This document shows positions 21,097-32,697 of a DNA stretch of 44,337 nt, piece by piece. Both the position numbers and the translations under genes were made by a program. The DNA is from Hydrogenimonas thermophila (GTDB lineage Bacteria; Campylobacterota; Campylobacteria; Campylobacterales; Hydrogenimonadaceae): the NCBI RefSeq assembly GCF_900115615.1, contig NZ_FOXB01000016.1, positions 1 through 44,337 of the forward strand. Direction: 5' to 3'. Each line of letters starts with the position of its first letter. The stretch's first letter is position 1. Below the pieces are notes generated by a model. The model worked only from the letters and a program-made list of their open reading frames with translations. It did not search any database and had not been told where the DNA came from.

Positions 21097-21125
21097 TAGA
21101 AATGGAGAAAAAGGAGTTATGTTTT

Positions 21126-22238
21126 GTGAAAGAATGGTTCTCTAAAAAATCAGTCATTATTACATCGCTATTTCTTTTTATAACAATGGGAATAGGTGTT
21201 TGGTATCTTTCTAAAAAAGTTGAAGAGAACCGTTATATACAATTTAGCGATACATTAAGAAACTACTTTAGAAACAAGCTTGATTCTCAAAAATCACAAG
21301 CACTATCTCTTGCGATTGCATTGGCTGAAAATAAAGCATTAAAAGAGGCTCTATGGGATGATGATGAGGATTTAGGGTATGAAATTCTTTCAAAAACATT
21401 GATGCGCCTTCGTGAATATACATTAATGAGTGATGTAAGAGCGCAAGTAATCACAACAGATTTAACTATTTTTGCAAGAAGTTGGGATAACACTTATGCA
21501 GGTATGCCCCTTGATATCTTCAGAGAAGATCTTAAAGAGATTACAACTCTAAAAAAACCTAAAGTAGCAATTGAACCTGGAAGACTTCTTTCTATTAAAG
21601 CGACAACGCCTATTATGCAGAAGTCAAAAGCTATAGGATATCTTGAAATTTTACAATTCTTTGACAAAATCACAGATGATCTTCGTCAAAAACATATAGA
21701 ACTACTTGTTTTAATGAATGAAAAGCTACTTAATATTGCAACTTTAATGCGTGAGAATCCAACTGTACACAACTTTGTCATTAGCAATAAAAACTATAAT
21801 TCAAATCTTCTAAAAATAGTTAATAGAATAAATATAAAAAAATTACTGCAACAAAGATACCTATATTCAAATGACTACTTTTTTATTATTGAAGATATGC
21901 TTGATGGAAAAGAAAATCAGATAGGTATTTTTTTAATGATTTTAAGTAAAGCCGATCTTAATGAACTCATATATGGTAACAAACCTCTCTCATTTTTTCT
22001 AAATTTTACACAAAAAGATCTATATCAAATTGTAAACAGATGGGAAGCACCTACAGGAGGTTATAGAAGTATTTATGATAAAAACCTTTTTAAACTTTTA
22101 AATACATTTGAAGGTGAAGACAGAATGTTAGTTGAGCAAGAGATTTATGAAGTATTGCAAGAGTATAGTAAAAAAGAGCTTATTGACATTATTCTTTATC
22201 AAAACAGAAGGCGTAAAATAACAGGAGATATAGAATGA
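21126..22238 (+). CDS. Membrane-anchored Cache-like sensor protein without output domain
   Basis: The 370-residue product has one N-terminal membrane helix (about residues 9-30) and then a long soluble region with no kinase, HAMP, MCP or cyclase part. The first half looks like a periplasmic Cache sensor domain: helix-rich start, then VITTDLTIFARSWDNTYAG and the IEPGRLLSIKATTPIM strand. A second region with FFIIEDMLDG and IGIFLMILSK could be a further sensor module. Inferred topology is N-in, C-out. GTG at 21126 with AAGGAG nine bases upstream is chosen; an ATG at 21102 has no ribosome site. The end overlaps the regulator start (ATGA). It may detect a periplasmic ligand and pass the signal to the kinase encoded two genes on. 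Confidence 0.7.
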   Translation: MKEWFSKKSVIITSLFLFITMGIGVWYLSKKVEENRYIQFSDTLRNYFRNKLDSQKSQALSLAIALAENKALKEALWDDDEDLGYEILSKTLMRLREYTLMSDVRAQVITTDLTIFARSWDNTYAGMPLDIFREDLKEITTLKKPKVAIEPGRLLSIKATTPIMQKSKAIGYLEILQFFDKITDDLRQKHIELLVLMNEKLLNIATLMRENPTVHNFVISNKNYNSNLLKIVNRINIKKLLQQRYLYSNDYFFIIEDMLDGKENQIGIFLMILSKADLNELIYGNKPLSFFLNFTQKDLYQIVNRWEAPTGGYRSIYDKNLFKLLNTFEGEDRMLVEQEIYEVLQEYSKKELIDIILYQNRRRKITGDIE

Positions 22239-22891
22239 GAATTTTATTGTTAGAAGATGAGTTTACACTTAGGATCAGTATGGTTGAATTTTTAGAAGAT
22301 CTTGGTTTTACAGTTGATGACTTTGAATCTGGCGATGATGCTCTTGATGCACTGTTTAAAAAAACATATGATCTTATTTTACTTGATGTAAAAGTTCCTG
22401 GAATTAATGGATTTGAACTACTTCGTACTGCACGTGAATATGGAAAAAATCTGCCTGCTATTTTCATTACTTCTCTTACCGATGTAGATGCATTAGCTAA
22501 AGGGTATAAAAGCGGTTGTTGTGACTATATAAAAAAACCATTTGATTTAATTGAACTGCAGTTACGTGTAGAACAAGCACTTAAATCTTCTTGTTTAAAA
22601 ACACAAGACAACTTTATAGACCTTCCAAATAACTATGTTTATGATACAAAAAATTTTGTTTTACTACATAATGAAGAGGAAATAACTTTAACTAAAACAG
22701 AAAAACGGATACTTGAACTTCTTATTCAAAACCGTGGCAATGTAGTAACTCCTGAACAGTTTCAGGAATTCGTTTGGGGAGAAGCAGTTGATCCAGCAAA
22801 TATTAGAGTACAAATTAATAAATTAAGAAAAAAACTATCTGCCGAACTTATATCAAATGTTCGTGGTTTAGGATATCGCATTGATCTTTGA
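22235..22891 (+). CDS. OmpR/PhoB-family response regulator
   Basis: The 218-residue protein has a receiver domain with the acidic pair LLEDE, phospho-acceptor D51 in LILLDVKVPGINGFE and the lysine motif YIKKPFDLIELQLR. A C-terminal OmpR-type winged helix follows (TKTEKRILELLIQNRGNVV, VRVQINKLRKKL-like stretch, VRGLGYRI). It is a DNA-binding transcription regulator. The overlap with the sensor upstream (4 bp) and the kinase downstream (11 bp) implies a single signalling unit. Direct repeats spaced 11 bp, the spacing preferred by this family, lie upstream of soxX. Confidence 0.92.
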   Translation: MRILLLEDEFTLRISMVEFLEDLGFTVDDFESGDDALDALFKKTYDLILLDVKVPGINGFELLRTAREYGKNLPAIFITSLTDVDALAKGYKSGCCDYIKKPFDLIELQLRVEQALKSSCLKTQDNFIDLPNNYVYDTKNFVLLHNEEEITLTKTEKRILELLIQNRGNVVTPEQFQEFVWGEAVDPANIRVQINKLRKKLSAELISNVRGLGYRIDL

Positions 22892-24038
22892 TAGAAAAAA
22901 GTTTGCACTAAAATATGCTCTGCTTTATGCTCTTCTTATCTCTTTAGTTATGCTTGTTCCACTATTTGTCTATACACAGCTAATGCTTGCAATAAATGAA
23001 GCTAAAACAGAAAATGATCTGCTAAGGGAAGCAAGAAATATAATAATGCAAATGGAAAAGTTTAATCCATCAAGAGATAAAACTTTCCATTTTCCACGAT
23101 ATTCAAGCTATCAGGCAGGACTTTATGACAGCAATATGCAAAATATATTTACTCTTTTAAAATTTGTTCCACCCAGTTTTACACCAGGTTATCATAAATT
23201 TAATGAATATCGCTACTATGTAATGAGACTCCCAGAAGATCGATATTTTGGTGCAAAATACCTTGTTATTTCCAAAAAAGAGAATAGTATGGAAATATAT
23301 TTGACAGTATTAATGATAATAGTTGGAATTGTTATAATGCTCTTTTTACTGACTTGGATGGTATTTAGAAACTTTGCAAGACCTTTTGAAATTATAAATC
23401 AACAACTAGATAACTTTATTAAAGACTCTATGCACGAAATAAATACTCCACTAAGCATTATACAACTCAATGCAGATCTTTTTGCTAGAAAATTTGGCTC
23501 TAGCAAATACCTTACACGCATTAAAGCAGCTGCAAAAACATTGGCAACGATCTATAACGATATGGATTATTTAATTAAAAAAGAGAAATTAACATATGAA
23601 AAAGAGAGAATTGACTTTTCAAAATTTTTACAGACACAAGTTGACTATTTTAAAGAGGTTGCTACTCTTAGAGAGATAGAGATTTATACAAAAATTGATA
23701 ATGAAGTATTTATAAACTTCAACCCTACAAAACTACAAAGAATAGTAGATAATACACTCTCTAATGCTATTAAATATAGCCATGAAAGAGGTAAAGTTTT
23801 TGTAGAATTGAAAAAAAATGGTACTAACACAATATTTAGTATTAAAGATGAAGGTGTAGGTATGAAAGAGCCTGAAAAAGTCTTTGAACGTTATTATAGA
23901 GAAGATAGTTTCAAAGGGGGATTTGGTATAGGTTTAAATATTGTTAAAAACATTGCAGATCAAGAAGGCATAATAATCGAAGTTGACTCTAAATTAGGTA
24001 AAGGAAGCACCTTTACCTATATTTTTGAGACTCTTTAA
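22881..24038 (+). CDS. Sensor histidine kinase
   Basis: This 385-residue kinase has two membrane helices (about 13-34 and 140-162) flanking a roughly 105-residue periplasmic segment. The dimerisation and phospho-acceptor site is SMHEINTPLSII (H185), followed by the N box VDNTLSNAIKYS (near 289-300), G1 DEGVGM (323-328) and G2 GGFGIGLNIV (346-355). The start is TTG, well placed seven bases after AGGA and overlapping the regulator gene. The periplasmic part is short and has no recognised ligand domain, which is in keeping with signal input from the separate Cache-like protein. The 3' end overlaps the convergent DUF302 gene by 4 bp. Confidence 0.9.
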   Translation: MIFDRKKFALKYALLYALLISLVMLVPLFVYTQLMLAINEAKTENDLLREARNIIMQMEKFNPSRDKTFHFPRYSSYQAGLYDSNMQNIFTLLKFVPPSFTPGYHKFNEYRYYVMRLPEDRYFGAKYLVISKKENSMEIYLTVLMIIVGIVIMLFLLTWMVFRNFARPFEIINQQLDNFIKDSMHEINTPLSIIQLNADLFARKFGSSKYLTRIKAAAKTLATIYNDMDYLIKKEKLTYEKERIDFSKFLQTQVDYFKEVATLREIEIYTKIDNEVFINFNPTKLQRIVDNTLSNAIKYSHERGKVFVELKKNGTNTIFSIKDEGVGMKEPEKVFERYYREDSFKGGFGIGLNIVKNIADQEGIIIEVDSKLGKGSTFTYIFETL

Positions 24039-24964
24039 TCATTGACTTTTTGCAATAATTCAACCATATCAACTTGTGCTTTTTCAAGAACTTTAACTGA
24101 TTCTGGGTCATCAATTGCAAGAGTTGAGATCCAGTTGTAAACATTTGGATATACAATTTTTACATTATTAGACCCTTTTTTCTTATATAGAGCCATTGTG
24201 CAAGGAGCAAAAACTCCAGCTTCAGGATGGATTTTTGATACTGTATATATGACCTTCAGTTTACAAAGCGAATATGTGTCATAAAAATCATAAATTTTAA
24301 TATTATTTTCATTAAGAAAATAGTTACTGTCAAAAAAGTTTGCCATTACAAAACCAATAGGTTTTAAACCATCCTCAATAACCATCTCTATCTCTTCTTT
24401 AAACTCCTCAATATCTATATCTTCATCATCAATCTCTACCTCAAAACGGGTCAAAAGTTTATTTGTAATAGCTTTTGGAGTATAGTTAAACTTCACCCTT
24501 TTTGCTCCAGGCAATGCTTTAAGTAGAGTCTCTATATTTTTAGCTTCTAACTTTTGTAGTAACTCATTATTATATGATAATCCCAATATCTTTGCCTGGG
24601 CAGAAGAGCTTAAAACACCTGCATAAATTGCATCATCACCCTTTTTTTGGTAGATAACAATAGAAAAAGGAGCAAATACTCCAGACTCTTCATATTTGAC
24701 TAACAAATCTTTAGTGATTTCAGGATAATAGAGTGTCATCAAATTATAAATTGAAAAATCAGTATCTTTAAATTGCTTAATAAAAGGTCCATTCATATCA
24801 CGATTGGCTTCTACTATATATCCTGCTTTAATAAAAGTATCTTCAATAGATTTAGTAGTTATCTTGTCACTTTTTTTAACATTAAATAGAATAATATCTT
24901 TATTGTCAGCATATGCACCTGTAAATATTAACAAAACAATAATAAATTTAAGAATTTTTTTCAT
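24035..24964 (-). CDS. Secreted protein with two DUF302 domains
   Basis: This 309-residue protein has a signal peptide ending near GAYA-DN. Two DUF302-like domains follow in tandem: the first includes FSIYNLMTLYYPEITKDLL and GVFAPFSIVIYQKKG, the second DFYDTYSLCKLKVIYTV and GVFAPCTMALYKKKG. The repeated GVFAP-x(2)-[MI]-x-[LI]-Y-x-KKG marks the duplication. DUF302 domains are small alpha/beta folds of unknown function that recur near sulfur-oxidation genes. It is the last gene of the sox-associated run, 19 bp after the DsrE-like gene. Confidence 0.78.
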   Translation of the reverse strand: MKKILKFIIVLLIFTGAYADNKDIILFNVKKSDKITTKSIEDTFIKAGYIVEANRDMNGPFIKQFKDTDFSIYNLMTLYYPEITKDLLVKYEESGVFAPFSIVIYQKKGDDAIYAGVLSSSAQAKILGLSYNNELLQKLEAKNIETLLKALPGAKRVKFNYTPKAITNKLLTRFEVEIDDEDIDIEEFKEEIEMVIEDGLKPIGFVMANFFDSNYFLNENNIKIYDFYDTYSLCKLKVIYTVSKIHPEAGVFAPCTMALYKKKGSNNVKIVYPNVYNWISTLAIDDPESVKVLEKAQVDMVELLQKVND

Positions 24965-24983
24965 TAGTTCATCCTCCTTGTTT

Positions 24984-25415
24984 TTATGGTCGAATATATA
25001 CCCAACCTTTTAAATCTCTTTCAACCAGCTCTACTATACCGGCAGTTACAATCTCAACATCTTCTATTAAATCTTCAGGTTTGATCTTTAAAGTACGCAT
25101 AGTATTGCCACAAGCAATAAACTCTACATCATAAGTTTGCAATGAACGCACTCTAACAGCAATCTTTTTCTCTTTTTTCAGCAATGTACGAATCCCTTTT
25201 GAGTAACAGATAATTGCTATCTCTACATTCTCAGGTCCATAAAATTTCATGACATTGTTTGCTGAACTTAATACATGATTTATAGACTCATCATCTCCTT
25301 TTGTTATAGGAAAAACAATCTTTCTTGGATTATCAATTGAAGGCTTTGGTTCTGCAAATTCTGTATCTGCAAAAGATAATACAAAAACCATCATTAGCAA
25401 TAGAATCTGCTTCAT
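24984..25415 (-). CDS. Periplasmic DsrE/DsrF-like protein
   Basis: The 143-residue product has a signal peptide (about 16 residues) and one DsrE/F-like fold. A strand leads into NVEIAIICYSKGIRTLL (C70), and the conserved loop EFIACGNTMRTLK carries C102, the cysteine position used for sulfur transfer in DsrE-type proteins. Cytoplasmic relatives carry persulfides in the Dsr pathway; the exported form suggests handling of sulfane sulfur in the periplasm. It is translationally coupled to the preceding cytochrome-thioredoxin gene (ATGA). Confidence 0.8.
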   Translation of the reverse strand: MKQILLLMMVFVLSFADTEFAEPKPSIDNPRKIVFPITKGDDESINHVLSSANNVMKFYGPENVEIAIICYSKGIRTLLKKEKKIAVRVRSLQTYDVEFIACGNTMRTLKIKPEDLIEDVEIVTAGIVELVERDLKGWVYIRP

Positions 25416-26188
25416 CTCTCATCTCCTTCAGAATGCTTTACCTCTTTTAGAATTGTTAAAAAATCATCTTTCATCCAAGCCCCCGGAACTGTTTTTAGCA
25501 CACTGCCATCGCTATTAAGAAAAATAAAAGTTGGTGTCATACTCCACTTAAGATTATTTGGAAGTTTTTGGCGACTCACATCAACACGTACAGGAATAAA
25601 GTCTGATGAAATTAAAGCAACTACATCTGGATCTTTAAGTGTTGTTTCTTCCATCTTTATACAGTAGTGACAGGTTGGACTAGTCACTTCTATCATAATA
25701 ATTTTTCCTAGCCTTTTGGCTAAACTAAACGCTTTTTGATAGTCAACATATTGAAGCTCATTTACCTCTTTTACAGGTGGCAGATAAAAGTAGATCCATT
25801 CTGCCACAGCTTCCATCTCTTCATCACTGATTTTACCTTTAAAAGAGGGCATTGTATTGAAATAAGAGAGTATCTCTGGCAAACAAATACTCTTTTGCTT
25901 ATCTGGATGAAGCAGATAATTTTGAATAAATGCAGTAACCTCCATTAACTGTATATCTTTATCCCCTTTTGGGTCACCTATTCTCTGTTTTAAACGGTAT
26001 GAAAGCTGGTTAACAGTTGGTGCTTTAAGATGAAGAAGAGTATTATTTTGCTCCATAAAATTCTTCATCAAAACTTCAACTGGAACATAGAGTTGATGAC
26101 AAGATGAACACTTTTTCTTATATACTTCTTCTCCATCTATACCAAACAAGGACAAAGAGAAAAACAATAAAATCCACAAATATTTCAT
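25412..26188 (-). CDS. Fusion of cytochrome c and thioredoxin domains
   Basis: The 258-residue secreted protein combines two redox modules. The N-terminal half is a monoheme cytochrome c with CSSCH (C27-H31) and a probable distal methionine in NTMPSF (M113). The C-terminal half is a thioredoxin fold with the active-site pair CHYC (C173, C176) and the cis-proline stretch WSMTPTFIF. It could pass electrons between thiols or persulfides and the respiratory chain, perhaps keeping Sox partners such as SoxYZ active, like SoxW elsewhere. Both ends overlap the flanking genes by ATGA. Confidence 0.85.
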   Translation of the reverse strand: MKYLWILLFFSLSLFGIDGEEVYKKKCSSCHQLYVPVEVLMKNFMEQNNTLLHLKAPTVNQLSYRLKQRIGDPKGDKDIQLMEVTAFIQNYLLHPDKQKSICLPEILSYFNTMPSFKGKISDEEMEAVAEWIYFYLPPVKEVNELQYVDYQKAFSLAKRLGKIIMIEVTSPTCHYCIKMEETTLKDPDVVALISSDFIPVRVDVSRQKLPNNLKWSMTPTFIFLNSDGSVLKTVPGAWMKDDFLTILKEVKHSEGDER

Positions 26189-27093
26189 TCACTCTCCCAT
26201 TCCAACTCTTCATAAGCTTTAATAACATTTTTACCATGCAACATTTTATAAAGTACCATTTTATGATACTCAGGCAAGTAAACCTTTTTGGTAACATCTA
26301 CCATATCAATATCATCTTCAATAGCCCTTTTAACCTCTATATAGAGTTTGTTTAAATAGGCTTCAATAAAATTCATTGCATCGCTGCCTGTTTTATAGCC
26401 ATGACCACCAACCATTACACTCCATTGCAAATTTTTAAGTTTTTTAACTGCTTTTAACCATCCTGAAAGTGAACCGTCTCGTAATGATGGAAGTCTGTCA
26501 TTAAAAACCAAATCACCAGCTAACAAAATCTTCTCATTAGGAATAAAAACTGCAATATCACTAAAAGTATGTGCTGGATGAGAAAAAGCAAGAATTTGCA
26601 AAGTAATATTGCCTATTTTAAGTGTTCTGGAATCAGAAATAAGGCGATCAGGAGCTACTGGAACAGTTCCTTTATAAAATAAAGGCTTTATAGCTATTTC
26701 TATGCGTGTTGGAGTAGCCAAATGATTACTGGAAAAGTTTTTGGGTCCATAAATCATTACACCTTTTTCATGATAAAAGCCATTACCAAGCCAGTGATCA
26801 TCATGCACATGCGAGTTAAAAACTGCCAAAACAGGCTGTGTCTTTACACTCTGCATAACACTAAAAGCCTCTTTTGCATAGAGATAAGTGGGTCCACTGT
26901 CAAAAACAATCCAGCCACTGCCGGCATCAATATAGCAAGTGTTTACCATATTGCCGTTATTTTCAGTGTTTGGAACCTGAAGATCACCAAAAAAACAGTA
27001 TAGCTTTGGTGCTACCTGCTTTGGGCTCAAGCCATACTCCTGCGACCAGAGCATCATACAACTTACAAACAGCAGGAGTAGACTCTTTTTCAT
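26185..27093 (-). CDS. Secreted metallo-beta-lactamase fold hydrolase (SoxH-like)
   Basis: The 302-residue protein has a signal peptide and the MBL metal motif HVHDDHWLGN (H95, H97, D99, H100). Further ligands lie in the HPAHTFSD segment, LLAGDLVFND and VMVGGHG. Members near sox genes are called SoxH and related ones belong to the quinoprotein-relay metallohydrolase group; their substrates are not known, glutathione- or thiol-linked sulfur compounds being candidates. AGGAAA lies before the ATG. It lies between the porin and the cytochrome-thioredoxin gene. Confidence 0.82.
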   Translation of the reverse strand: MKKSLLLLFVSCMMLWSQEYGLSPKQVAPKLYCFFGDLQVPNTENNGNMVNTCYIDAGSGWIVFDSGPTYLYAKEAFSVMQSVKTQPVLAVFNSHVHDDHWLGNGFYHEKGVMIYGPKNFSSNHLATPTRIEIAIKPLFYKGTVPVAPDRLISDSRTLKIGNITLQILAFSHPAHTFSDIAVFIPNEKILLAGDLVFNDRLPSLRDGSLSGWLKAVKKLKNLQWSVMVGGHGYKTGSDAMNFIEAYLNKLYIEVKRAIEDDIDMVDVTKKVYLPEYHKMVLYKMLHGKNVIKAYEELEWESE

Positions 27094-27107
27094 ACTATTT
27101 TCCTAAA

Positions 27108-28616
27108 TTAAAATAGATAGTTCAGCTCAAAACGATACTCATTATATGAAGGATCGCTTTTTGTTACAGTTCCTGTTTGAGGATCTCCATTAACTAATCC
27201 TATACGAACACGTGCTTCCAATCCTGGGAAAGATTTGATTTTTTGAATAGCATCTAAATGAATTACCTGCGTATCTGCCTGAACACCAGGTTTATTATCA
27301 TCAAAATCTTGAATTGCATATCTGAACATTGCAGTTAACCCAGGGACAAGACCTGCTTTATCAAAGCTATAGTCACCACGAATCATATATGTTTTAGTAT
27401 TTGCATACCAGTTATACTGAGCCATAGCTCTTGTAAAACCACCTGTAGGGAATCCTCGCCACGGTGCTACAATGTCTGCTTCATCAGCAATTTTTGAATA
27501 ACCAAGTCTAAATTTCCAAGCTTGATTGCTCTTAATGTCAACTCTAGCAGCAAACAACCAGCTATCAAGGCTATATTTATTTGTATATCCAGTAACATCT
27601 CCTTTAAGGTTTGCAACTGCAACAGGTCCTGTAGAAATAGCTGCAAATTTATCACCAACTCCACCATCAAACTGTTTCATATATCTTACACCTGGAATGA
27701 TCTTTAAACCACCAGCAGGAATTGTGTAGTAAGCTTCTACTGTAGCAGATGATACAACATCTGGAACTGCTGTATAGTTAGCTTTTAGTTTCAGATTTTT
27801 TATAGATTTATTTGCAGCTTCCAATACAACAAGATCGTGGTTCGGATCCATACCCGCTGCAAGGAAATTACTATAAGACAACGATCTATTAACTGCAGAA
27901 TCATCATTATTTGCCCAAGATTCTTTAGTATTATCATAACCATCATCTACAGTGTTATATGTAATTACATCATGAAAACTAGTATGGTCACGAAGTTTTT
28001 GTTTTGTAAGGTAAGCAGCTTTTAGAGTTGTTTTTGGAAGATCTTTTGAGACAACAGTAACACCTTCAAATGTATTTGGGATCATCTTTGTATCGTTACT
28101 TTTTGTCAAAAAGCTTTCAAAAATTTGTCGTCCAACTCTAACTTTGGTTTTGTTTAAGCGGTACTGCATATATGCTTGTGCAAGTACTGTCATACCCCAA
28201 TCACCAGTAGCTTTTACATTGTATCTGCTTGTTGTATCTTTACCTGCTTTTATGAAACCAACATCTGCATCATCCATATGCCAAGGACTTTGTGATGTAT
28301 AAAGTCCTGCCATACCACTGAAACCTTTATATTCAGCCGATTTATAGAGTAAACTTCCTCCAAATCCTGCTGCCCAGTTATCTTGATTTTTTGATGTTTC
28401 TTCTTTCCAGTCCCATTTAAAAGTATTTATACGAATACGTCCATAAAACATACCTTCAGTCAACATGTCTTTTAGACTATCAACCTTTGGAGGAACTTTG
28501 TTAAATACTAATGTTCTGTTTGCTTTAAGTGTTACTTTAGGCTTATCTGCTGCATTTAAAGAGATACCTACACCTACGGCCATCAAAGCTGCCAAGCTTA
28601 ATTTAATCATTTTCAT
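27108..28616 (-). CDS. OprD-like outer-membrane porin
   Basis: The 502-residue protein has a 22-residue signal peptide (ending NAA-DK). Its beta-rich body carries alternating aromatic strands and ends NEYRFELNYLF, whose terminal phenylalanine is needed for outer-membrane insertion. Sequence style and length match the Campylobacterota Opr-family porins. It may admit thiosulfate or another anion for the Sox proteins; this is inferred from position. AAAGG precedes the ATG. It is separated from soxB by 126 bp containing a long-armed hairpin, so its expression may be set separately. Confidence 0.8.
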   Translation of the reverse strand: MKMIKLSLAALMAVGVGISLNAADKPKVTLKANRTLVFNKVPPKVDSLKDMLTEGMFYGRIRINTFKWDWKEETSKNQDNWAAGFGGSLLYKSAEYKGFSGMAGLYTSQSPWHMDDADVGFIKAGKDTTSRYNVKATGDWGMTVLAQAYMQYRLNKTKVRVGRQIFESFLTKSNDTKMIPNTFEGVTVVSKDLPKTTLKAAYLTKQKLRDHTSFHDVITYNTVDDGYDNTKESWANNDDSAVNRSLSYSNFLAAGMDPNHDLVVLEAANKSIKNLKLKANYTAVPDVVSSATVEAYYTIPAGGLKIIPGVRYMKQFDGGVGDKFAAISTGPVAVANLKGDVTGYTNKYSLDSWLFAARVDIKSNQAWKFRLGYSKIADEADIVAPWRGFPTGGFTRAMAQYNWYANTKTYMIRGDYSFDKAGLVPGLTAMFRYAIQDFDDNKPGVQADTQVIHLDAIQKIKSFPGLEARVRIGLVNGDPQTGTVTKSDPSYNEYRFELNYLF

Positions 28617-28671
28617 TATTCAACCTTTCATTACATTATGCTACAATTTAATGCTTTTTTTCTAACGTAAA

Positions 28672-28731
28672 GTGCCTCACTTAGGTCTGTTTTTATAGGA
28701 GTAGGAATGAGCAAACCAAAAAGTGAGGCAC
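28672..28731 (-). other. 11-bp inverted repeat in the soxB-porin gap
   Basis: GTGCCTCACTT (28672-28682) and AAGTGAGGCAC (28721-28731) are perfect complements around a 38-base loop. No T-tract follows on the minus strand, so it is not a standard terminator. It could be a stem that protects or processes mRNA between soxB and the porin, or the ends of a tiny mobile repeat. Confidence 0.5.
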
Positions 28732-28742
28732 GGAAACGACTA

Positions 28743-30506
28743 CTAACAAATACCCCCTGCCTTAGGACAGCCGCATCCTACATCTACAACATTTACATTA
28801 GATGTTCTAGATATATCGACAGTACCTTTTTTCTTAATATAATCAGCTGTAATATCATAAACAGGACGAATCTTACTTTCACGAAGATTTTTTCCTGCAC
28901 TTTGAAGATTACCACCCCAAGCTGAAACTACATAATTCCTGTTTGGATCAAGCGGTTTACCATTAACTTTTAAGTTGGAGATACGCTTTCCACTTGGTGC
29001 ACCAATCTTAATGTCATAAGTTACACCTGTTAAACGACTCATATCTCCACCTTGCTGGTATAGAGGATTGGCATTGAAAACATTATCGGCAATATCTTCA
29101 AGCAATTGAGCTATTCTTGCTCCTTGCAACTCAAAAGTATACACTTCAGGATATGTAATTGCTGTCATCTCATAAACATTATCCATTAAAATATCATCTC
29201 CAGGTAATAGAGTGGTTCCCCATCGATACCCAGGAGTAAATGTGATCTCATTATCCATCTCATCATGAATTGCTTCACCAATTAATGCATCAAATGTAGA
29301 GTAGAATGTATCTCTCTTATAGAGCAAACCTTTAGTTTTGCCAAGTACTTGATTCAACTCTTTATCATAAGGTTTATAGAGAGCATCAACCAACTCTATT
29401 CCCTTCTTATCAGGTGTGATCAAGTTTGATGCTATTGGAATTAGTTTATAGTTATAATCAACTACTCTTTTGTTCTTAATATCTATATCAAGACGACCAA
29501 CATATTTGCCGTGGCTTCCGGCAATAATGATAACAGTACCGTTAATTGTGATCGGCTTAGGTCCAGGGTCATGAGTATGTCCACTTAAAATAAAGTCTAT
29601 ACCATGCACTTTTCTGGCAACTTCCTGATCTACACTAAAACCGTCATGGCTGAGTAGAACTACACAATCAACCTTCTTATCTTTACGTAGCTCATCTACA
29701 TACTCTTGAAGAGTATCAAGGCGTAAACCAAAACTCCACCCTTCAGTAAAACGTTTTGGATTAGCTGTTGATGTAAATGGAAATGATTGACCAATAATGC
29801 CTACCTTAGCTCCACCAACCTCTTTAATGGTATATGGCTTAAATACAAGCTCTTCAAACTCATCACTAAATGGATCGTTATCGACTATATTCTGGGAGAT
29901 AAAATCTGCCTCAAGCATATCAATCAGCTCAAGTACACGCTCTTTTCCGTATGTAAACTCCCAATGTCCAACCATTACATCAACACCAAGATAATTTTGA
30001 GCCTTTACAATAGCCTCACCGCCTGTTTTAAGTGCAACTGCTGTTCCTTGCCATGTATCACCTGAATCAAGCAACAGTACATTATCTTTGCCACGATCTC
30101 GGCGTACCTCATCAACAACTGTTTTTATATAAGCTATACCTCCCATTTTTCCAAACTTTTTGGCAAGCTCTTCAAAATTTAGGTAAGTATCAAAATAACC
30201 TTCTAAAGTTCCTGGTTTTACACCATAAAACTCTGCAAAACTCTTGCCACATAAAAAGCCCGGAGTACCAGTTAAATTTGAAGCAGAAATAAGAGTAGAA
30301 GGCTCACGCCAATAGAGTGGTTTTATATGTGCATGCAAGTCGCAAATGTGTAACAGCGATACATTACCTACCGATTTAAAATCCATAATATCTGTAGCAG
30401 TCACCTCATCAATACGTTTAGAGGTTCCTGCCATTAAATTACCGCCTGCTCCTAAAAAACCCAAAGCTGCGGCAATTTGTAAAAAATCCCTTCGGTTTAT
30501 ATCCAT
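28743..30506 (-). CDS. soxB: Thiosulfohydrolase SoxB
   Basis: SoxB hydrolyses sulfate from the thiosulfonate group carried on SoxY. It is a 5'-nucleotidase/metallophosphatase family protein of 587 residues. The N-terminus has a twin-arginine signal (RRDFLQIAAALGF), as expected for folded export. The two-manganese site appears as DLHAH (D56, H58), DSGDTWQGT, GHWEFTYG and SGHTHDPGP. The last 17 residues include GCGCPKAGGIC, a cysteine cluster that is odd for SoxB. AAGGA precedes the ATG, 13 bp after soxA. Confidence 0.93.
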   Translation of the reverse strand: MDINRRDFLQIAAALGFLGAGGNLMAGTSKRIDEVTATDIMDFKSVGNVSLLHICDLHAHIKPLYWREPSTLISASNLTGTPGFLCGKSFAEFYGVKPGTLEGYFDTYLNFEELAKKFGKMGGIAYIKTVVDEVRRDRGKDNVLLLDSGDTWQGTAVALKTGGEAIVKAQNYLGVDVMVGHWEFTYGKERVLELIDMLEADFISQNIVDNDPFSDEFEELVFKPYTIKEVGGAKVGIIGQSFPFTSTANPKRFTEGWSFGLRLDTLQEYVDELRKDKKVDCVVLLSHDGFSVDQEVARKVHGIDFILSGHTHDPGPKPITINGTVIIIAGSHGKYVGRLDIDIKNKRVVDYNYKLIPIASNLITPDKKGIELVDALYKPYDKELNQVLGKTKGLLYKRDTFYSTFDALIGEAIHDEMDNEITFTPGYRWGTTLLPGDDILMDNVYEMTAITYPEVYTFELQGARIAQLLEDIADNVFNANPLYQQGGDMSRLTGVTYDIKIGAPSGKRISNLKVNGKPLDPNRNYVVSAWGGNLQSAGKNLRESKIRPVYDITADYIKKKGTVDISRTSNVNVVDVGCGCPKAGGIC

Positions 30507-30519
30507 AATAGTATCCTTC

Positions 30520-31290
30520 TTATCGCTTCAATCCGGGGATGGAAATCTTTTTATCTTTCTTTTTTGCCAGATTGGTTACATAAACTTCTAAAGCCACCAT
30601 TTCTTTACTACCTATAGGAAGTACTGCCAAAAGAGCATTTTTCATACACCCCTGAAAACGGCGTTGTAGTGTTCTAAGAGATGATTTTGTCATTCGATAT
30701 GCAGGCCAAGTTCCACCAGCATTTACATCACCGAGATTTGGTAATGGCTGTGTACGTAAAATTAGTCCAACAACCTCTTTTGAGTGGCAACTGTTGCAAG
30801 AAAGCCCCCGTTTCCCTCTTTTGGTCATAAACATTTTCTCTCCGAGTTTGAAACTTTCTTGCATCTTTTTATTGGCATTTACATCAATATTGATTTGCTC
30901 ATCATTTGCCAAAGATTTTGCATATGCAAGCATTTCAAACATTTCACTACTTTTAAGTTTATATGGCTTGTGTCCGTTAAGATACATAACTGCCTGCAGT
31001 ACCTGATCAAGTCCTAAAACCTCATCCACTTGAGGAATGTAGCGTGGAAATGAAGCTATTGTCTTTGGCAACTCATCTACTTTTACACCAAGAAATTTAG
31101 CCAAAGCCTCTTCTGTTACCAATTCATCAAACAGTTCACTTCCCTCTTCAACAAAAATATCAGCCGGATTATTCTCAAGCATCTCCTGATAAAGAGCACG
31201 ATCTGCATCTGACATACTAAACTGTTCAGAAGCCATTGTTAGTGAAACAGTCAATGCTGAAGCAGCTATGAGTGATATCATCTTTCTCAT
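30520..31290 (-). CDS. soxA: L-cysteine S-thiosulfotransferase subunit SoxA
   Basis: SoxA is the heme subunit that, with SoxX, attaches thiosulfate to the SoxY cysteine. The 256-residue protein has a signal peptide ending TMA-SE, one CxxCH heme site (CNSCH, C165-H169) and the active-site cysteine C215 in RRFQGCMKN that ligates heme as a persulfide. Only one heme motif is present, so this is the monoheme type rather than the diheme form. It is 3 bp from the soxZ stop. Confidence 0.94.
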   Translation of the reverse strand: MRKMISLIAASALTVSLTMASEQFSMSDADRALYQEMLENNPADIFVEEGSELFDELVTEEALAKFLGVKVDELPKTIASFPRYIPQVDEVLGLDQVLQAVMYLNGHKPYKLKSSEMFEMLAYAKSLANDEQINIDVNANKKMQESFKLGEKMFMTKRGKRGLSCNSCHSKEVVGLILRTQPLPNLGDVNAGGTWPAYRMTKSSLRTLQRRFQGCMKNALLAVLPIGSKEMVALEVYVTNLAKKKDKKISIPGLKR

Positions 31291-31293
31291 TGA

Positions 31294-31632
31294 TTATCCT
31301 TTTTTAGGCTTGACCTTTTTGGTCTTTTCGTGCACTTCACCCTGATTATCTTTATAAACTACTTTTATAACTCCACGACCTGTTATTTTCATATTTATAG
31401 AGAAATATGGGTTAGTAGAGACTGACTCCCAAACGATCATTTTTGTAACAAGTTGATCATTATAGAAAAACTGTACATCATTAATGTAATGCGCCGGAAT
31501 AATCTTCCCTGTCTTTTTATCTTTGCGCATACCTGTATCCATTGGATGAATAACAATAAAATCAACTTTGACTGTATCGCCTACTTTATACTTTTTAGGT
31601 TTTATTTTAATAAGTGATTTTCGTTTTGCCAT
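31294..31632 (-). CDS. soxZ: Thiosulfate oxidation carrier complex protein SoxZ
   Basis: This 112-residue partner of SoxY has the immunoglobulin-like fold with VKVDFIVIHPMDTGMRKDKKTG and ends in a lysine-rich tail. It is exported as a complex with SoxY and has no signal peptide of its own. GGAG precedes the ATG. It sits between soxY (18 bp) and soxA, the order seen in Campylobacterota sox clusters. Confidence 0.94.
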   Translation of the reverse strand: MAKRKSLIKIKPKKYKVGDTVKVDFIVIHPMDTGMRKDKKTGKIIPAHYINDVQFFYNDQLVTKMIVWESVSTNPYFSINMKITGRGVIKVVYKDNQGEVHEKTKKVKPKKG

Positions 31633-31650
31633 AATTTTCTCCTTTTCCTA

Positions 31651-32121
31651 TCAACCGCATCCGCCGATGGTTACTTTTACACTTTTGTGCGCCTTAATAA
31701 ATGTTCCGTCTCTAAGTTCAGCAACTGCTACAACTTCCTGTGTTCCGCCAAGCTTAATGCGCGTAGCAAAGTATGCTTTCCCATTTAGCGGTGTTAAAAA
31801 TACATCTGCACATCTTGCATTAGAGTTTTTAGTTGCCAATACATGAATTGACTTGACATAATTATTTGGCTCCATTGGATAATCAACAGTAACTTTTACC
31901 GGTACAACAGCACCATTTTCCGCAATTTCAGGAACTACCAAATTTACTTTGTCTGAATCTTTTGCACCTTTTCCATTTGTGATGATCTCAAGTGCTTTTT
32001 TATAAGAGATCTCATTTGGACTTTTTGGTTTTTTACCTGCCCCCAGTGAAATGGTTGGCGCTCCTACAGCCGTTAATGCACAAGCACCAGCCAATCCTTT
32101 TAAAAATCCTCTTCTTTCCAT
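31651..32121 (-). CDS. soxY: Thiosulfate oxidation carrier protein SoxY
   Basis: SoxY carries the sulfur substrate on the cysteine of its C-terminal swinging arm, here GGCG as the last four residues. The 156-residue protein starts with a twin-arginine-like region (MERRGFLKGLAGACAL), explaining export with SoxZ. The body is the Ig-like SoxY domain. AAGGAG lies just before the ATG. It follows soxX by 18 bp. Confidence 0.95.
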   Translation of the reverse strand: MERRGFLKGLAGACALTAVGAPTISLGAGKKPKSPNEISYKKALEIITNGKGAKDSDKVNLVVPEIAENGAVVPVKVTVDYPMEPNNYVKSIHVLATKNSNARCADVFLTPLNGKAYFATRIKLGGTQEVVAVAELRDGTFIKAHKSVKVTIGGCG

Positions 32122-32139
32122 TATTTTCTCCTTTAGCTC

Positions 32140-32697
32140 TTATTTTTTTTCACTCACAACATAAGATGTAATATCGCAAATTTCACGAGGCGTAAACAGA
32201 CCTGTTGTTAGATTTACAGTCATATGTGTATTTGGATTGTGTACACGTGGATCAGCTATCTGCTGATAGACATACTCATATGTCCTAACACCAGTATCTA
32301 TGAAGTGTTTTTTGTAGTTATGAAGATCAGGGCCTATGTTTCCACCGCCTTTAGCACCCTCTATATTGTGACAAGCTACACAGTTTCCATACTGTTTAGG
32401 CTTTTTCTTGCCACCTGCAATTACAAACTTTGCTAACCCTTTTGGCGGTTTGCTTTTTGCTTTTTTTCCGTTGAGATTATGAAAGATATATTCGCCTCTA
32501 GCTATTGCCAAAGGATCTGTTATAATACACTCTTTTGGCATTACATACTTTTTTGGCGGTGCAAGTTTATCTTTTTTCAAGATTTTACTTGCATCCGGCA
32601 TTTCTACAATACTTTTGAGATCAGCAGAATATAGCGTCTCAGAAAGACAAAATGCCAGTAATCCGGCACTAAGCATCAAGCTTCTGTTCCGATGCAT
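32140..32697 (-). CDS. soxX: Cytochrome c subunit SoxX
   Basis: SoxX partners with SoxA and receives electrons from the thiosulfate coupling reaction. The 185-residue protein has a signal peptide, one heme motif CVACH (C106-H110) and a distal methionine in NTHMTVNL (M159). It is longer than the minimal SoxX, with a lysine-rich insert around residues 80-100. AGGAG precedes the ATG. It is the first gene of the soxXYZAB run, with an upstream region of 89 bp holding direct repeats. Confidence 0.93.
   Translation of the reverse strand: MHRNRSLMLSAGLLAFCLSETLYSADLKSIVEMPDASKILKKDKLAPPKKYVMPKECIITDPLAIARGEYIFHNLNGKKAKSKPPKGLAKFVIAGGKKKPKQYGNCVACHNIEGAKGGGNIGPDLHNYKKHFIDTGVRTYEYVYQQIADPRVHNPNTHMTVNLTTGLFTPREICDITSYVVSEKK

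Follow-up and report, generated by a model that had tools for sequence, protein, structure and literature searches.

In thiosulfate oxidation by the Sox pathway, SoxAX loads thiosulfate onto SoxY and SoxB removes sulfate, leaving SoxY as a persulfide. The Campylobacterota are the dominant sulfur oxidizers of many vents and redoxclines, but there is no settled view of how they deal with the sulfane sulfur on SoxYZ, particularly in the absence of SoxCD. This question is raised by a locus of Hydrogenimonas thermophila, a bacterium of deep-sea vent type, on contig NZ_FOXB01000016.1 (44,337 nucleotides, analyzed as a whole and called the window here), in which soxXYZAB and a gene for an OprD-type porin are followed, all on the minus strand, by genes for a metallo-beta-lactamase-fold (MBL) hydrolase, a cytochrome c-thioredoxin fusion, a DsrE-family protein and a double-DUF302 protein. 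A preliminary description of this DNA had read the last four as an exported, poorly described accessory system for sulfane sulfur, and all ten genes that it listed were confirmed in position and strand (Table 1). We favor the reading, to which we give a probability of roughly 0.55, that the block serves the soxXYZAB thiosulfate-loading branch as an accessory module, forming one operon with it, with the exported DsrE as its core and with a mechanism that we infer. The composition of the module, its conservation, its operon geometry, the co-occurrence of SoxB and DsrE and the conserved catalytic residues link it to Sox.

Co-occurrence of exported DsrE with SoxB

We surveyed 249 Campylobacterota genomes, 39 of which carry SoxB (38 over the cut-off and one broken by a contig end). 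Because a greedy open reading frame caller hid genes in several loci, the presence or absence of genes was taken from homology searches. Strong DsrE matches were found in all 39 genomes with SoxB and in none of the other 210; the weakest match counted stood at 1.8e-29, and the best match of the next genome at 1.7e-4. In each of the 8 genera that vary, the presence of DsrE agreed with that of SoxB (two-sided sign test, 0.008). DsrE was present in 9 of 9 genomes with SoxB and no SoxC and in 0 of 8 with SoxC and no SoxB, showing that its distribution follows SoxB and not SoxC, and the possibility that DsrE merely tracks SoxCD was rejected. In four genomes (G003, G044, G058 and G237), DsrE is kept though unlinked to soxB, lying on another contig or 272 kb away. 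The presence of DsrE in every sampled genome with SoxB, and in no sampled genome without it, suggests that DsrE is probably an overlooked component of the Sox pathway. Matching SoxB genome for genome, it is a concrete and testable candidate for the missing step and, if this is true, the list of genes by which a complete thiosulfate-oxidation pathway is called from metagenomes would have to change.

Two types of SoxB share this partner. The second type is about 40% identical to that of the window, and its clusters hold soxCD and one soxYZ; soxB is followed there by a heme-thioredoxin fusion or a lone thioredoxin, often by a MOSC-domain protein, and then by DsrE. Since published phylogeny traces the two SoxB groups to different sources (PMC5401914), DsrE either joined two Sox systems that were acquired separately or passed from one to the other. 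All 21 genomes with the window-type SoxB have the double-DUF302 protein, as does 1 of 18 with the other type; in several genomes, paralogs of this protein are located a few kb from soxC, and DUF302 also occurs beside soxCDYZ clusters. At three loci of the other SoxB type (L145, L146 and L154), a MOSC-domain protein adjoins DsrE where window-type clusters have DUF302. The MOSC domain is a family linked to sulfur transfer.

The association extends to two further phyla. A plasmid of Methylosinus trichosporium carries soxZ-soxB-DsrE-DsrE-DUF302, and on a plasmid of Indioceanicola profundi a DsrE with 52% identity lies about 5 kb away from soxB, the two being separated by a CcdA-like gene (named from its sequence, not by profile search). 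In two Runella plasmids of the Bacteroidota (L180 and L182), genes for a TsdA/SoxA-type cytochrome, DsrE, a SoxB-like protein, an OprD porin and YeeE/YedE stand in a row, and no SoxYZ was found in the stretch read, where DsrE may take the place of SoxYZ. The single conserved cysteine of DsrE, Cys102, is a putative sulfur site; it is invariant across 22 sequences from Campylobacterota and across a set of 9 that spans three phyla and includes the Methylosinus, Indioceanicola and Runella proteins.

Gene order and conserved residues of the module

The preliminary description had made its proposal depend on the gene order being found beyond this genome. Dozens of genomes throughout the Campylobacterota share this order, which is more than chance would give, and an arrangement peculiar to this genome was thus rejected. 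Among 58 loci with SoxB and sequence beyond DsrE, DUF302 comes next after DsrE in 54 to 55, the higher count including one that lies a few hundred bases away. The porin, MBL and thioredoxin genes precede DsrE in most loci, with varying completeness, and the junctions between thioredoxin and DsrE are mostly overlaps of 4 nucleotides (nt). The assumption that the four genes form one fixed unit was not supported. DsrE alone is invariant with SoxB: the MBL gene is missing from Nitratiruptor-type loci and the thioredoxin gene from many Sulfuricurvum loci. On two Sulfuricurvum-type contigs (L073 and L075), we observed genes for a DsrE-like protein, SoxY, SoxZ, SoxB, DsrE and a second SoxB-like protein, with no recognized SoxA or SoxX.

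The thioredoxin also varies in its heme. Of 84 thioredoxins in sox blocks, 42 are fused to the heme domain and 39 occur on their own; the other 3 have a separate cytochrome gene next to them. On the tree, which is weak and built from few columns, the fusion state changed 8 times, at least 2 of these changes being forced by well-supported branches. An essential fusion was rejected on the basis of the 39 standalone thioredoxins and the repeated changes, which suggest that the heme is helpful rather than essential; the occurrence of split and fused forms at the same position supports the view that the two domains function as a pair. In one closed genome (G220; locus L184, G220:C1:1761500-1781400), a 3,883-bp unit comprising a partial MBL gene, two heme-thioredoxin fusions, DsrE and DUF302 is present in three identical tandem copies, and soxXYZAB and the porin gene are single. 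This triplication may be a recent amplification of the accessory module alone or an assembly artifact.

The four proteins of the window were examined individually. Hydrophobic N-termini with plausible signal-peptidase sites, detected by a simple scan rather than by SignalP, agree with the signal peptides claimed for all of them. The MBL hydrolase is nearest to SoxH-related models but falls under their cut-offs (TIGR04558, 171.6 bits against 300; TIGR04559, 173.5 bits against 280), and its binuclear metal site is complete, with H95, H97, D99, H100, H175, D194 and H231 invariant in 18 homologs. In the cytochrome c-thioredoxin fusion, CxxCH (27-31), CxxC (173-176) and Pro219 are invariant in 17 homologs, and the AlphaFold2 model shows two domains (pLDDT 87.8). 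The protein has the thioredoxin fold, CxxC and cis-Pro expected of SoxW or a periplasmic thioredoxin. DsrE does not fit a cytoplasmic DsrEFH or DsrE-TusA relay, since its N-terminus is signal-like and the block holds no DsrF/H or TusA gene; in its cytoplasmic relatives, a cysteine is the carrier site for sulfur or thiosulfonate (PMC4175335). In the last protein, the PF03625 profile matches the second half only, where Cys234 and Cys255 are invariant in the alignment. BLAST between the two halves gave a match of only 23 residues, and the assignment of a repeat is thus based on the AlphaFold2 model (pLDDT 92.5), which bears out the claimed duplication: its two halves are equivalent, match the DUF302 structures 1q9u (TMt 0.82) and 1j3m and are each comparable in size to 1q9u. 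The nearest named homologs are those of Hydrogenimonas. Taken together, these data uphold a conserved, exported set of sulfur- or thiol-type proteins tied to sox, with a putative role in sulfane sulfur chemistry.

Possible roles in sulfur transfer

In the accessory module that we favor, Cys102 of DsrE would take the sulfane sulfur from SoxY after SoxB has acted and would pass it to SoxY2Z2-SoxCD where these are present. The SoxW-type thioredoxin, with or without heme, would resolve mixed disulfides or persulfides on SoxY or DsrE and, when fused to heme, could send electrons from its dithiol to the c-type cytochrome pool, and the porin probably admits thiosulfate or polysulfide. To the MBL hydrolase and the double-DUF302 protein we assign putative reactions linked to Sox. 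The host genome does not hold the SoxCD of a complete Sox pathway: SoxC (TIGR04555) had no match at E<=0.001 in this genome (completeness 100) or in any of the 18 genomes of the genus, 5 of which have SoxB. In such SoxC-less Hydrogenimonas, the sulfur on DsrE may become polysulfide or S0, or may go to a second SoxYZ beside a flavocytochrome-c-type flavoprotein. A second soxYZ pair does lie on another contig (L169, G000:C56:4486-8101), next to genes for a flavocytochrome-c-like flavoprotein, a small CxxCH protein and a Rieske-like protein, these neighbors being named from motifs rather than by profile search.

A wider proposal is that the exported DsrE is an unrecognized core component of SoxB-dependent thiosulfate oxidation in Campylobacterota, some Alphaproteobacteria and Bacteroidota, acting as a periplasmic sulfane or thiosulfonate carrier on the substrate or product of SoxB; we advance it only tentatively.

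Several points weigh against a DsrE-centered module. The Fisher value for the co-occurrence of DsrE and SoxB, about 1e-46, overstates the association because the genomes share ancestry, and many of them are host-associated and have neither protein. In 33 of the 39 genomes, no more than 6.3 kb separates DsrE from soxB, suggesting that the co-occurrence is partly simple co-inheritance. DsrE is also found with SoxCD-adjacent single-cluster systems, in which a step from SoxY1 to SoxY2 is not needed. In many Sox organisms that have SoxB, among them Paracoccus with its soxB plasmids, no DsrE of this kind was detectable on the same replicon, and DsrE is thus not universal in Sox systems. Finally, the chemistry of the four exported proteins is one that we infer.

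The main competing explanation, which we consider unlikely though it could hold together with sulfur transfer, is that the module replaces SoxS/SoxV/SoxW and reduces wrong SoxYZ disulfides with electrons from DsbD, without carrying catabolic sulfur. It would account for the thioredoxin domain of the fusion being nearest to DsbD-gamma, DsbH and SoxW-like folds. SoxS reactivates SoxYZ in Paracoccus, as cited in PMC10451225, and Arcobacter butzleri, whose single sox cluster has one soxYZ, is reported to lack soxV (PMC2147049). No DsbD_TM/CcdA gene that could serve as a SoxV partner was found within the window block, and the host genome encodes one full-length DsbD, along with one weak match, on other contigs. 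Thiol maintenance does not explain, however, why the thioredoxin is missing from so many Sulfuricurvum clusters while DsrE stays, and a DsrE with a single conserved cysteine is not expected to be a disulfide reductase. From general redox knowledge, a c-type heme fusion favors electron flow away from the dithiol.

It is still less probable that the module disposes of excess sulfane sulfur, by exporting it as polysulfide or S0 or by detoxification, when SoxCD is absent or saturated. SoxC is missing from several SoxB genomes besides those of Hydrogenimonas, a porin sits in the block, and loss of SoxCD causes sulfane stress in Cupriavidus, according to PMC9959259. But the block is equally present with SoxC (30 of 39 genomes), and the SoxH-related models nearest to the MBL hydrolase are not those of a persulfide dioxygenase. 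That the genes are passengers, sharing an operon and regulator with sox and having no role in thiosulfate oxidation, would suit the coming and going of individual members between loci but is very hard to reconcile with the 39/39 against 0/210 distribution of DsrE, unlinked copies included, and with its ties to two SoxB types and to soxB or soxB-like genes in two further phyla.

Layout of the window and related systems

SoxX, SoxY, SoxZ, SoxA and SoxB of the window all exceed the NCBIfam equivalog cut-offs for the core of the Sox pathway (Table 1). The tight coupling described for the last genes was found again: MBL and fusion, and fusion and DsrE, overlap by 4 nt (ATGA), and 19 bp separate DsrE from DUF302. 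The gap between porin and MBL is 14 bp and that between soxB and porin 126 bp. The hairpin in the latter gap recurs in other Hydrogenimonas loci (L061 and L063), where the letters of the stem vary with pairing kept and the C/U-rich loop CATTCCTACTCCTA is identical; in three genomes, its fold z-scores were -2.9 to -3.8. A similar stem, but with a different loop, is present in Sulfurovum loci. The hairpin is a possible mRNA processing site or small RNA, and an Rfam search of the window gave no matches. Promoter and terminator scans returned no more sites than shuffled sequence, and thus we base no claim about transcription units on them.

Table 1. Features of the sox locus in the window
Feature	Position	Strand	Evidence or remark
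cache-type sensor	21102-22238	+	likely cluster regulator, from conserved position
response regulator	22235-22891	+	likely cluster regulator, from conserved position
histidine kinase	22881-24038	+	likely cluster regulator, from conserved position
exported double-DUF302 protein	24035..24964	-	PF03625 5.1e-8, 33.1 bits, cut-off 23
exported DsrE-family protein	24984..25415	-	PF02635 1.8e-9, 38.2 bits, cut-off 22.7
exported cytochrome c-thioredoxin fusion (SoxW/DsbD-gamma type)	25412..26188	-	N-terminal CxxCH domain, C-terminal Thioredoxin_2
exported MBL-fold hydrolase, SoxH-related	26185..27093	-	PF00753 (Lactamase_B) 1e-16
OprD-type outer-membrane porin	27108..28616	-	PF03573 3.4e-15
hairpin	28672..28731	-	11-bp perfect stem, soxB-porin gap, directly after soxB
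soxB, thiosulfohydrolase	28743..30506	-	TIGR04486 817.8 bits, cut-off 550
soxA, c-type cytochrome	30520..31290	-	TIGR04484 198.9 bits, cut-off 110
soxZ1	31294..31632	-	TIGR04490 109.6 bits, cut-off 76
soxY1, sulfur carrier	31651..32121	-	TIGR04488 163.7 bits, cut-off 125; C-terminal GGCG arm (ends IGGCG), Tat-type signal
soxX, c-type cytochrome	32140..32697	-	TIGR04485 79.8 bits, cut-off 61

In 33 of 40 comparable loci, soxX is immediately preceded by the genes for the sensor, response regulator and kinase. Those of the window are at the far end of the block and converge on DUF302, the kinase and DUF302 genes overlapping by 4 nt. Most relatives have the trio upstream of soxX and on one strand with it, but here the two are on opposite strands, which points to an inversion of the sox block relative to the trio. 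In Sulfurovum mangrovi, where the trio carries the same annotation, the whole regulator-sox-MBL-DsrE-DUF302 block lies on a 395-kb replicon (L179) from the plasmid collection; as this record was deposited as a plasmid, the block may be mobile.

The block was partly described before. Expression of dsrE, soxW and soxH1, which adjoin soxABXY1Z1 in Sulfurovum indicum, was 2.17- to 3.83-fold higher on thiosulfate than on S0 (PMC10045233). Three of the four genes had thus been named already and the block was known in part, contrary to the preliminary description, which had also asked whether the genes respond to thiosulfate or are regulated independently of sox; those of S. indicum change in the same direction as soxABXY1Z1. 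We found the block described only in that paper, and none on the heme fusion, a Campylobacterota DUF302 partner or the equivalence of SoxB and DsrE, in a search that reached few subscription papers. The heme fusion, DUF302 and the matching of SoxB and DsrE go beyond the earlier account.

Among the closest known systems is that of S. indicum ST-419, dsrE-soxW-soxH1-soxBAZYX, with the same genes in the same region beside soxABXY1Z1; S. indicum has SoxCD, unlike the present genome, and its report proposes no mechanism and does not describe DUF302, the heme fusion or an invariant association with SoxB (PMC10045233). The sox clusters of Sulfitobacter, an alphaproteobacterium, likewise contain the DsrE and DUF302 families, but at other positions (soxB-soxC and soxF-soxH), and their role is likewise unassigned (PMC11034169). 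In the TsdA-SoxB-SdoA system of Erythrobacter flavus, sulfane sulfur left by SoxB also needs handling, and the gene set resembles that of the Runella plasmids, but there is no SoxYZ and the paper does not mention DsrE (PMC7608252). SoxS/SoxV/SoxW of Paracoccus and Rhodovulum resemble the present block in having a periplasmic thioredoxin beside sox with SoxYZ as its likely target, whereas the present cluster lacks a SoxV-type CcdA, has its thioredoxin fused to heme in about half of the cases and adds DsrE. Thiosulfonate transfer by DsrE3A/TusA in Metallosphaera is similar in that a DsrE-family protein with a sulfur-binding cysteine takes part in thiosulfate/tetrathionate oxidation; that DsrE3A is cytoplasmic, with TusA and Hdr-like partners, whereas the DsrE described here is exported and has SoxYZ and SoxB as its partners (PMC4175335).

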